From Pseudomonadota bacterium (GTDB lineage: Bacteria; Myxococcota_A; UBA9160; PR03), in NCBI GenBank assembly GCA_003576805.1, contig QEVM01000017.1, positions 1-43,426 of the forward strand: a stretch of DNA of 43,426 nt, written 5' to 3'. Positions 7,953 through 22,657 of the stretch are shown piece by piece. Position numbers and translations under genes: made by a program. How positions within the stretch are numbered: position 1 is the stretch's first letter; every line of letters begins with the position of its first letter. The notes under the pieces are model-generated. The model had not been told where the DNA came from. It saw nothing but the letters and a program-made list of their open reading frames with translations, and searched no databases.

Positions 7953-8027
<75 letters not shown>

Positions 8028-19445: not shown

Positions 19446-20894
19446 TCATCGGCGAATGGCGACGGCTCCTGAGGCAAATCCCGATTCCGGGACGGAGGCG
19501 ACCGGGAGGTTCCGCGATCCGGGGTGCGCGCCGGCGGACGCGTCGGGCTCGCCGATCAGCGAGTGCGGCGTGGCCTCGGCGATCCGCACGCGCACGATCT
19601 GCCCGGGCGCGACGTCCGGGAAGTGCTCCGCGGCCACGTTGACCACGCGGTGCCACGGGTCGCGTCCGGCGAGCTGCTGCGCGCGCCGGCTGCGGCCCTC
19701 GATCAGCACGTCCGCCTCGCCGCCGACGCGGCTGCGGTGATAGGCGAGCGTCTGCGCGCGGACCTGCGCCTGCAGGGCCTCGAGCCGAGCCTGCGCGACC
19801 TCTTCCGCCACGGCGTCCGGAAGCCCGGCAGCCGGCGTACCGGGCCGCGGCGAGTACTTGAAGGAGAATGCGTCGACGAAGCCGGCGTCGCGCACGAGCC
19901 GCAGCGTCGCCTCGAACTCGGCGTCGGTCTCGCCGGGAAAGCCCACGATGAGATCGGTCGTCAGCACCAGGCCCGGGCGCGCGCGGCGCAGCGACTCCGC
20001 GAGCCGGCGCACGTCGTCGCCCGTGTACCGGCGCCGCATGCGCGCGAGCACGGCATCCGAGCCGCTCTGCACCGGCAGGTGCACGTGCGGGCACAGCGGA
20101 GCGAGGTCGCCGTGCGCCGCGACGAGCGCCTCGTCGAAGAACAGCGGGTGCGGGCTCGTGTAGCGAATGCGCTCGATGCCGGGGATCGCGGCGAGCCGCG
20201 CGAGCAGCGCGGAGAAGCGCATCGTGCCGTTCGACGAGGCGTGACCGCGGCGCACGTCGTGACGACCGTACGCGTTCACGGTCTGCCCGAGCAGCACCAG
20301 CTCGACGACGCCGCGCGCCGCGAGATCCTCCGCTTCGCACACGATCGCGTCGGCGGGACGGCTCACCTCGCGGCCGCGGGTGGTCGGCACGATGCAGAAG
20401 GTGCAGAACATGTCGCAGCCTTCCATCACGGTGAGGAAGGCGCGCCCTGGCGTCGACGCTTCGAACTGGGGATGGCGCTCCGGGAGATCGAAGCGGTCGA
20501 GGCTGCGGCTGGTCGAGACGTCCGCGGAGCGCTGGCCCGCCTCCGCCGCGCGCACCATCGCGGGCACGTGCCGGAGGTTGTGGGTGCCGAAGACGAAGTC
20601 GAGCTGCGGGAAGCGCGCGAGCAGCGCGTCGCCTTCCTGCTGCGCGACACAGCCCCCCACGCCGATCAGGCGCCCCTCGCGCGCCGCCTTCCACCGTCGC
20701 AGCAGCCCGAGGTCGCTGTAGAGCTTGTGCTCGGCCTTCTCGCGGATCGAGCAGGTGTTCACGACCAGTACGTCGGCGTCGTCCGGCTCCGCCGCCGCGT
20801 ACCCGGCATGGAGCAACAGATTCGCCAACTTGTCGGAATCGTGGACGTTCATCTGGCACCCGAAGGTGCGGATCGCGAAGCTCCGGAACGCCAT
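19446..20894 (-). CDS. miaB: tRNA-2-methylthio-N6-dimethylallyladenosine synthase
   Basis: Radical-SAM methylthiotransferase that adds the ms2 group to i6A37 of tRNAs reading U-starting codons; 482 residues. The N-terminal UPF0004 domain supplies three cluster cysteines (C13 in FGCQMN, C48 in NTCSIRE, C82 in GGCVAQ). The radical-SAM CxxxCxxC is C160, C164, C167 (CDMFCTFC). LPVQSGSDAVLARMRRRYT and DLIVGFPGETDAEF are typical, and a TRAM domain (about 385-447) precedes an unusual Ala/Ser-rich tail of about 35 residues. The leader has only a weak ribosome-binding site. It is divergent from the candidate small RNA. Confidence 0.95.
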   Translation of the reverse strand: MAFRSFAIRTFGCQMNVHDSDKLANLLLHAGYAAAEPDDADVLVVNTCSIREKAEHKLYSDLGLLRRWKAAREGRLIGVGGCVAQQEGDALLARFPQLDFVFGTHNLRHVPAMVRAAEAGQRSADVSTSRSLDRFDLPERHPQFEASTPGRAFLTVMEGCDMFCTFCIVPTTRGREVSRPADAIVCEAEDLAARGVVELVLLGQTVNAYGRHDVRRGHASSNGTMRFSALLARLAAIPGIERIRYTSPHPLFFDEALVAAHGDLAPLCPHVHLPVQSGSDAVLARMRRRYTGDDVRRLAESLRRARPGLVLTTDLIVGFPGETDAEFEATLRLVRDAGFVDAFSFKYSPRPGTPAAGLPDAVAEEVAQARLEALQAQVRAQTLAYHRSRVGGEADVLIEGRSRRAQQLAGRDPWHRVVNVAAEHFPDVAPGQIVRVRIAEATPHSLIGEPDASAGAHPGSRNLPVASVPESGFASGAVAIRR

Positions 20895-20997
20895 GGGGGC
20901 CCAACCTATCCGAGGCGCGCAGGCGTCGCCAAAGCGCGCCTCGCTGCCGCGGACGTCGCGCGCGCGACGGGGAATCGCCTCACGCTCAAAAAGCTGT

Positions 20998-21027
20998 TTG
21001 ACACTGCGCTGGAGCCGCGGGCATAAT
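20998..21027 (+). promoter_or_regulatory. Strong sigma70-type promoter on the plus strand
   Basis: TTGACA (20998-21003), an 18-base spacer and CATAAT (21022-21027; GCATAA with a 17-base spacer) form the best -35/-10 pair in the window, preceded by a locally A/T-rich run (CTCAAAAAGCTGTTTGACA). It faces away from miaB into sequence with no convincing gene, ending at the intrinsic terminator at 21166-21205. Transcription would begin near 21034. The flanking bases 20895-20997 hold only the miaB leader; no miaB promoter was recognised in them. Confidence 0.7.
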
Positions 21028-21033
21028 GCGATC

Positions 21034-21205
21034 CATCGAAGGTCGCGAACCGAGGAGCGACGAAAGAAACCAGCGAGTTATGGAGCGGCGGTGGATAAGA
21101 CATTTCGAACTGAAATGTCCAACCTCTCACCCCCCATCATCTATCCACCGCCCTCCGCCTCGTCGAACGCCCCGCTTGGATGACTCCAAGCGGGGCGTTT
21201 CATTT
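21034..21205 (+). ncRNA. Candidate structured small RNA (about 170 nt)
   Basis: Sequence bounded by the promoter at 20998-21027 and the terminator at 21166-21205, on the strand opposite to all neighbouring genes. It can fold as nested stems: CGACGA 21058-21063 with TCGTCG 21160-21165; GGAG 21082-21085 and an 11-base arm 21087-21097 with 21142-21152 and CTCC 21153-21156 (15 bp, one bulge); and inside it an 8-bp hairpin (21099-21106 with 21112-21119, loop GAACT). A C-rich strand (21120-21141) remains unpaired. It does not match 6S, tmRNA, SRP RNA, RNase P or common riboswitches as far as can be judged by eye. An overlapping 30-codon frame (21091-21183) is a possible alternative product. Confidence 0.6.
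21166..21205 (+). terminator. Intrinsic terminator of the candidate small RNA
   Basis: A perfect 15-bp GC-rich stem (21166-21180 with 21185-21199) with the 4-base loop TGAC, followed on the plus strand by TTTCATTT. On the minus strand the stem is followed by TTCGACG, which is no U-run, so it is oriented for plus-strand transcripts. It ends 24 bases before the stop of the convergent VWA gene. Confidence 0.87.
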
Positions 21206-21229: not shown

Positions 21230-22657
21230 CTAGAGGACGAGCCGATCGACGATGCGCGAGAGCTGCCGGAGGTTGCGGCACTCCTCCGCCAGCGTCGTGA
21301 ACGGCAGGTACTTGTCCATCACGGAGTCGCCGAAGCCCCACGCGCTCGGGCTCTCCGGATTCAACCAGATGACGTTCTTCGCCTTGTTGTGGATGTCGCG
21401 CAGGCACCACGCCTTCGGGTCGTTGTAGTTGTTGCGCGCGTCCCCCAGCACGAGAACCGTGGTCTTCGCGTCCACGGCCGACAGGAAGTCGCGCCAGAAG
21501 GTGTGGAACGCCATGCCGAAGTTGCTGCGGGTGTAGACGTTGATCACGCCGCCGCCCTCGAGCGCCTCTTCGATCGCCTTGCTCACCTCGTGGTCGTGGA
21601 ACGTCTGGGTGACCTCGCCGAGCTCGGCGACGAACACGAAGGCCCGGATCTTGGTGAAGCACTCCTGCAGGCTGTAGACGAACTGCAGCATGAAGCGCGA
21701 CACGTTCGCGACCGAGGACGACACGTCGCACAGGATGACGAGCTTCGGACGGTCCTTGCGGCGCTCCTTGAATACGAGCTCGAACGGCAGGCCGCCGTGT
21801 CCGGCGTTGCGGCGCAGCATCGTGTGCAGGTCGAGCTTGCCGCGCTTGAGTCGCCGCTTGCGGATCGACATCACGTTCTTGATCCGCTGCGCGAGCCGGT
21901 TCACGACCTCGCGCATGCGTGCGATCTCCTCCTCGGTGAGGCTGTAGAAGCTCTTCTCGAACAGCGCCTCGCGCCGGAAGCGCTCCATGTAGTCGAAGTT
22001 GCGCGTCTGGAGCTCGCGATCCATGTAGTCGCGCACGCTCTGGCGCAGCGCCTCGAAGAAGCGGTCGGCGAGCTTGCCGATCGCTTCCGCTTCGGCGTCG
22101 CCCATGCCGGCGGCGCGCAGCCGCGCCGCCAGATCGCGCAGCTCTCCCGCCGCGTTCTCGGCGCCGAGCTGCTCCATCGTGCGGCGCGAGAAGAAGCCGA
22201 TCTGCAGCATGTTCTCGATGCGCGCCGCGCCGGCCTGGCTGGCGGCCGCGCGGATCATCTGCTCGAGCTGGTTGAGGTCGCCGGTGAGGAGCGCGCGGGC
22301 GAGGTCGCCCAGGTCCATCTCGCCTTCCGGCAGCTGGCCGCTCTCGAGCATCTGGCGGATCTGCTCGAGCAGCTGCTGGACGTCGATGCCCTGCTCCGCG
22401 AGCGATCCGGTGGCCGAGTCGAACGCGTTCTTCAGGTTGTCGTAGAAGCCCGACCAGTAGAGGTCGAAGAGCTGGTCGTAGGTGGCGATGTCGTCGCCGC
22501 GCTTCACGAGCGAAGCGCGCAGCGCGTCCCGGAACACGTCGCGGTCGTCGAGCGACAGCTCGTCGAGCGCCTGGAACGCGTCGATCGCCTCGGCGACCGA
22601 GACGCGCAGACCGCTCTGGCGCAGCAGGTTCGCGAACTCGAGGATCTTGCGCTGCAT
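21230..22657 (-). CDS. VWA domain protein, CoxE-like
   Basis: A 475-residue protein with a helical N-terminal half (residues 1-265) and a C-terminal von Willebrand factor A domain. The MIDAS metal site starts with DVSSS (311-315) after the hydrophobic strand KLVILC; TRSNFG and LGDARNN supply further MIDAS-like positions. This CoxE-like family is found next to MoxR AAA ATPases and helps assemble or activate partner enzymes; CoxD/CoxE mature CO dehydrogenase. The partner MoxR gene is immediately upstream (21-base gap). No Mo enzyme gene is present here, so the client is unknown. ATG at 22655-22657 follows GGGAGG. Confidence 0.87.
   Translation of the reverse strand: MQRKILEFANLLRQSGLRVSVAEAIDAFQALDELSLDDRDVFRDALRASLVKRGDDIATYDQLFDLYWSGFYDNLKNAFDSATGSLAEQGIDVQQLLEQIRQMLESGQLPEGEMDLGDLARALLTGDLNQLEQMIRAAASQAGAARIENMLQIGFFSRRTMEQLGAENAAGELRDLAARLRAAGMGDAEAEAIGKLADRFFEALRQSVRDYMDRELQTRNFDYMERFRREALFEKSFYSLTEEEIARMREVVNRLAQRIKNVMSIRKRRLKRGKLDLHTMLRRNAGHGGLPFELVFKERRKDRPKLVILCDVSSSVANVSRFMLQFVYSLQECFTKIRAFVFVAELGEVTQTFHDHEVSKAIEEALEGGGVINVYTRSNFGMAFHTFWRDFLSAVDAKTTVLVLGDARNNYNDPKAWCLRDIHNKAKNVIWLNPESPSAWGFGDSVMDKYLPFTTLAEECRNLRQLSRIVDRLVL

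Follow-up and report, generated by a model that had tools for sequence, protein, structure and literature searches.

A new family of structured small RNAs with an invariant C-rich strand, encoded beside miaB in one class of Myxococcota-like bacteria

Yfr1, a small RNA (sRNA) of cyanobacteria, is 54-69 nucleotides (nt) long and has two hairpins and an ultraconserved, unpaired 11-nt motif, ACUCCUCACAC (PMC2190773, PMC6778093). In Listeria, the CU-rich single-stranded sites of LhrC pair with Shine-Dalgarno regions independently of Hfq (PMC4132741), and in Staphylococcus the unpaired C-rich regions of IsrR pair with Shine-Dalgarno sequences, including that of the miaB messenger RNA (mRNA) (PMC11448259). 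The sRNA Pxr of Myxococcus has 5′ stem-loops that are conserved and a 3′ stem-loop that varies (PMC5684412). Here we describe an RNA element that lies next to miaB on contig QEVM01000017.1 (assembly GCA_003576805.1) of a bacterium deposited as Pseudomonadota and placed by GTDB in Myxococcota_A (UBA9160; PR03). The whole 43,426-nt stretch is referred to as the window, and all coordinates are given on it. A preliminary description of the window had proposed a candidate structured sRNA at this place, and deep conservation together with stem covariation in relatives now bears this out. We are nearly certain that the RNA is real and that it represents a new, class-wide family.

The conserved core consists of a closing stem (P1), a long stem with one bulged C (P2), a hairpin (P3) and, between P3 and the 3′ side of P2, a C-rich single strand (Table 1). 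Compensatory changes, which the preliminary description had named as the sign to look for in aligned relatives, are found in the stems. An alignment of 74 copies fitted to our covariance model, which leans towards the structure, has 93.7% of its cells paired and changes on both sides in 15 of 26 pairs. Double changes occupy 93 of its cells; shuffles give 30.8 +/- 4.9 (0 of 500 as many), and sliding the partners gives at most 31. A plain MAFFT alignment points the same way more weakly, with 51 double-change cells against 34.1 +/- 5.0 (3 of 500), and one slid version of it attains 56. The three stems each contribute. P1 varies in sequence and has both-side changes in 4 of 4 modelled pairs, reading CGAG/CUCG, CAGG/CCUG, ACGG/CCGU or CAAGG/CCUUG in different genomes. 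P2 is paired in 97.4% of cells, with double changes in 7 of 14 pairs. In P3 the figures are 95.9% and 4 of 8; its loop varies, and its arms, GACAUUUC/GAAAUGUC in the window, are for example GGUUGUUUC/GGAACAACC in the copy L085.

While the stems and loop vary, the strand AACCUCUCACCCCCC is identical in 76 of 76 readable copies, some of which came from a search that favoured this very sequence and others from blastn and model searches that did not require it. No other part of the molecule is as well conserved as this strand, the one that had been proposed as a seed.

How widely is the element distributed? With blastn it was found in most genomes of its own order and of a second order among 98 relatives. 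The covariance model (R1), applied to 379 genomes of the phylum, matched 68 of 80 genomes in the element's own order, or 70 of 80 with fragments at contig ends (G052, G053), and 8 of 11 in the second order, with one copy per genome. No convincing match was found among the 379 genomes outside these two orders; the sole weak one (G277, 28 bits) is not adjacent to miaB and is regarded as a chance hit. When 84,980 species genomes were scanned for the strand together with the 3′ strand of P2, 64 contigs matched, all but one of which carry the element. The exception (L126) is a chance match in coding-like sequence that has neither the fold nor miaB. The matched contigs belong to metagenome-assembled genomes, mostly titled Deltaproteobacteria or Myxococcota/Myxococcales, with UBA9160 and SZUA-336 among them. 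No element was found in the viral contigs searched. On this sampling of genomes, the family is confined to one class of Myxococcota-like bacteria, made up of the order that contains UBA9160 and the order that contains SZUA-336.

Most absences coincide with a miaB that is missing from the assembly or cut off. Leaving aside G090 (58% complete), eight element-negative genomes have no miaB match in their assembly (G002, G020, G024, G032, G039, G056, G086 and G089) and three have a miaB cut at a contig end (G001, G014 and G046). G013 is the sole checked genome that has an intact miaB but no sequence match. Its miaB locus (L204:3187-3275) reads CATAAT, followed by GGAGGAGCGACGGA/UCCGUCGCUUCUCC around a CGGCA/UGCCG hairpin and the strand AAUCCCCCCCCCGCGAUC, which carries nine C residues; the stems are rewritten and the architecture is the same. 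The model, which was not trained on G013, gives 17.2 bits there. Since true copies reach as high a score on their opposite strands, the assignment rests on position and architecture and not on the score. The G013-type form was sought in other genomes of the order and not found. This case suggests that C-richness and architecture are what evolution has kept.

The element also appears to be kept as a transcript. Upstream of the core, at a distance of 0-210 nt, 70 of 74 loci have a promoter-like site with at least 9 of 12 consensus matches (shuffles average 7.7), and among the 74 loci the exact hexamers TTGACA and CATAAT occur in 56 and 44, respectively. After the core, 70 of 74 relatives have a hairpin with a stem of at least 8 base pairs (bp) and a T-rich tail, and many pairs of this terminator stem have changed on both sides. 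The leader between promoter and core varies among relatives in both sequence and length. A promoter and a terminator conserved around a leader without fixed length or sequence argue that a transcript is kept and not a DNA site. A coding peptide was considered and rejected, as an ATG at the start of P2 (before GAG) is present in only 26 of 76 copies and no reading frame is conserved. Judged from these sequence features, the element is probably an independent sRNA of about 130-170 nt that is constitutively transcribed.

At the window locus itself, most of what the preliminary description had read from the sequence reappears in the computed analysis. Its near-consensus promoter, TTGACA-18-CATAAT, is there, and a scan of 1.5 kb gave no second promoter of equal quality (shuffles give 0.1 +/- 0.3). 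The 176 nt at 21030-21205 have a folding energy of -80.9 kcal/mol, against -49.8 +/- 4.1 for shuffled sequences (z = -7.6), and 0 of 200 shuffles reach an energy as low. In this fold the 8-bp hairpin and the 22-nt unpaired C-rich strand stand exactly as described. The other helices were recognised correctly and their lengths need small revisions: the closing stem has 5 bp instead of 6, the bulged stem around the hairpin 16 instead of 15, and the terminator hairpin also 16 instead of 15. The tail of the terminator, TTTCATTT, is an interrupted T tract, which is probably why a strict terminator scan of the locus did not list it. The preliminary description placed this plus-strand element amid minus-strand genes, and both flanking genes are on the minus strand.

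Table 1. Features of the element and its flanking genes in the window
Feature	Position	Strand	Basis or remark
Promoter, sigma-70 type, TTGACA-18-CATAAT	20998..21027	+	11/12 consensus matches
Predicted 5′ leader	21034..21072	+	Start inferred about 7 nt past the -10 box
Conserved core, bounded by closing stem P1	21073..21163	+	Fold and alignment
Closing stem P1, 5 bp	21073-21077 pairs with 21159-21163	+	Predicted fold
Stem P2, 5′ strand, UGGAG-C-GGCGGUGGAUA	21081..21097	+	Pairs with 21142-21157; 16 bp and a single bulged C in the predicted fold
Stem P2, 3′ strand	21142..21157	+	Fold and alignment
Hairpin P3, GACAUUUC/GAAAUGUC, 8 bp, variable 5-nt loop	21099..21119	+	21099-21106 pairs with 21112-21119
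C-rich single strand, 22 nt, CAACCUCUCACCCCCCAUCAUC	21120..21141	+	Fold and conservation
Intrinsic-type terminator, hairpin and T-rich tail	21165..21205	+	16-bp hairpin at 21165-21200
miaB (tRNA methylthiotransferase)	19446..20894	-	Divergent neighbour
VWA_CoxE-domain protein gene	21230..22657	-	Convergent neighbour, often directly downstream in relatives

In the genomic neighbourhood, miaB lies upstream and divergent in every copy with a readable upstream flank, and genes for VWA, AAA and RibBA proteins lie downstream in many copies. In many relatives miaB is apparently leaderless, with a TAGNNT box resembling a -10 element a few bases before the start codon, and in several of them TTGAC is found further upstream of that box; the corresponding region of the window is 20895-20915. 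Pairing between the strand and miaB was considered as a candidate, since the motif AGGTTGG in the miaB leader of the window seemed complementary. It was rejected: the motif belongs to a probably leaderless promoter, as its -10-like element, and the complement is not conserved.

The supposition that the RNA belongs to no known family also stands. None of the Rfam 15 covariance models reached its gathering cut-off at the locus, in the window or in four relatives. The best match below threshold, ar7 (32.7 bits against 60), was discarded: it is on the opposite strand, where the terminator palindrome and the VWA gene give rise to it. In a full-text search the strand sequence turned up in no paper, and a literature search for small-RNA work on this group returned none bearing on the RNA. 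The RNA is previously uncatalogued, and on the features tested it is not Yfr1, LhrC, IsrR, 6S RNA or any Rfam member. In the window as a whole, the sole Rfam match above cut-off is a transfer RNA gene at 7956-8027 (-).

What might such an RNA do? Of the features of a trans-acting sRNA with a C-rich seed, its own promoter and terminator, the lack of coding capacity and a conserved unpaired C-rich strand are found here. We give about an even chance to the reading that it acts in trans and without Hfq, its C-rich strand pairing with G-rich ribosome-binding sites. P2 and P3 would stack as a rigid coaxial stem that protects the RNA, and the strand AACCUCUCACCCCCC would stay exposed as a bulge held open between P3 and P2. 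Unaided by Hfq, it could then pair with many mRNAs at their G-rich Shine-Dalgarno regions (GAGGU, GGUGA, GGGGG) and lower their translation. Hfq was detected in 0 of 26 relatives (G000-G025) while the controls of the search were found, and sRNAs of this order would therefore act independently of it. Among 501 start regions of G006, 10.0% pair with the strand at -15 kcal/mol or below, whereas 100 shuffled strands average 5.3% (3 of them reach the observed share), and among 228 start regions of G034 the figures are 15.4% and 9.3% (7 of 100 as high). The effect is larger, and partly circular, when start codons are picked by Shine-Dalgarno strength. Pairing, if there is any, would use short G-rich sites in many mRNAs rather than long ones, because long complements are not clearly enriched. 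As for a long antisense target, GGGGTGAGAGGTT (one mismatch) occurs in 15 genomes and GGGTGAGAGG in 5, which, with the locus's own opposite strand set aside, is hardly commoner than the reversed control, and this candidate was dropped.

Several observations weigh against this mechanism. The bias at start regions is modest, comes from crude gene calls and is partly what any sequence resembling an anti-Shine-Dalgarno would give. Sequences complementary to the strand, exactly or nearly so, occur no more often than those complementary to a reversed control. A conserved individual mRNA target was sought and none was found, so that the suggestion of a base-pairing seed, borne out as regards conservation, falls short as regards a target. 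Finally, 15 perfectly conserved nucleotides are more than an sRNA seed typically needs, and such a length also fits a protein or ribosomal RNA (rRNA) as partner.

Rho prefers unpaired C-rich RNA, and the strand could be a site for this protein or for one of the cold-shock or KH type, the RNA serving as a decoy or scaffold that titrates it. Perfect conservation of 15 nt without a matching conserved target agrees with a protein site, as does G013, which keeps its nine C residues but not the exact sequence, as would suit a binder of poly-C. The invariance of CCUCUCA in 76 copies, however, goes beyond what a general poly-C binder needs, and we consider a protein site unlikely, if the most serious of the alternatives. 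It is still less probable, though worth stating, that this class-wide RNA acts on a general machine and not on individual mRNAs, its rigid stem displaying the invariant strand either to the ribosome, through rRNA pairing or mimicry of the anti-Shine-Dalgarno, or to Rho or another C-binding protein; if this were true, the RNA would be a global regulator of a kind not described before. For rRNA pairing as such, with an action on ribosomes or their assembly, the chances appear slim. Eleven of 12 positions of the strand are complementary to 773-784 of 23S rRNA (GGGGGUGAAAGG; L298), a comparison with the Escherichia coli sequence only, as the assemblies tried yielded no rRNA of these organisms. In addition, UCACCCCC of the strand is similar to the 16S anti-Shine-Dalgarno UCACCUCC. 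Judged by pair count, 47 of 2000 shuffled 12-nt cores do as well as the real one in the 23S match (about 2%), and judged by energy, 16 of 200 shuffled 16-nt strands. Against this reading, the match includes a C-A mismatch relative to E. coli that is unchanged in every copy, and G013 is without that part of the strand.

The remaining explanations concern other types of RNA or the neighbouring genes. Strict linkage to miaB raises the thought that the RNA regulates this divergent gene, or that a shared promoter region is the conserved thing. We hold this to be quite improbable, because no complement to the strand is conserved at miaB start regions, many of which appear leaderless, the distance from strand to miaB start ranges from about 180 to 580 nt across copies, and long-lived gene order alone explains the linkage, the whole neighbourhood being syntenic. 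A cis-acting leader, such as a riboswitch or an attenuator whose expression platform is the terminator, would account for an aptamer-like fold directly followed by a terminator. In 38 of 72 loci, however, the VWA gene is convergent and at most 330 nt downstream, which disfavours such a role at those loci; the constant neighbour is the divergent miaB and not a plus-strand gene downstream, and no alternative pairing of the fold with the terminator was seen. This explanation is scarcely credible, and the same can be said of a divergent form of 6S RNA, the RNA that binds RNA polymerase. A conserved single-copy RNA with a long stem and an open strand does recall 6S, and only 4 of 31 relatives give a 6S match; 6S in this order is either very diverged or patchy. 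The window's own genome, however, has a separate 6S RNA above the Rfam cut-off (G000:C39:24291-24481, minus strand), the 6S model (RF00013) has no match at the miaB-side locus, the opening is on one side only and does not form a symmetric central bubble, and the core is followed at once by an intrinsic terminator.

The family adds an RNA to a large uncultured group for which the literature searched describes no regulatory RNA. Being near-universal in its class, single-copy and fixed beside one gene, it probably has a basic function. A strand held identical in two orders amid changing stems also makes for a sharp and testable prediction of its partner.

Among the described systems, Yfr1, LhrC and IsrR are the nearest in how the RNA would work. 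Yfr1 too is a near-universal sRNA of its clade, with an ultraconserved, unpaired C/U-rich strand, a 3′ terminator and unconserved loops, and its motif, which contains CUCAC, is held between helices. That said, the Yfr1 arrangement of an unpaired ACUCCUCACAC between two hairpins in 54-69 nt was not found here: AACCUCUCACCCCCC lies in a bulge within a long stem, the terminator is separate, the RNA is longer and the hosts are Myxococcota-like. The likeness to Yfr1 would be one of function and is not taken as homology, and the same holds for LhrC, which has five copies, three redundant CUCCC sites and another fold. IsrR differs in being regulated by Fur, in having three C-rich regions and in belonging to Firmicutes; its connection to miaB is pairing with the mRNA, whereas here the link is gene order only. 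Pxr is set apart, by its description and not by alignment, through the TTGACA/CATAAT promoter of sigma-70 type, the miaB-side locus and the different fold of our RNA. With 6S RNA the element shares a single copy, a long stem and an opened region, without matching its Rfam model and in a genome that holds a 6S RNA of its own. The family also suggests that C-rich strands resembling the anti-Shine-Dalgarno, as in cyanobacteria and Firmicutes, may have arisen again in a group in which Hfq is not detected.
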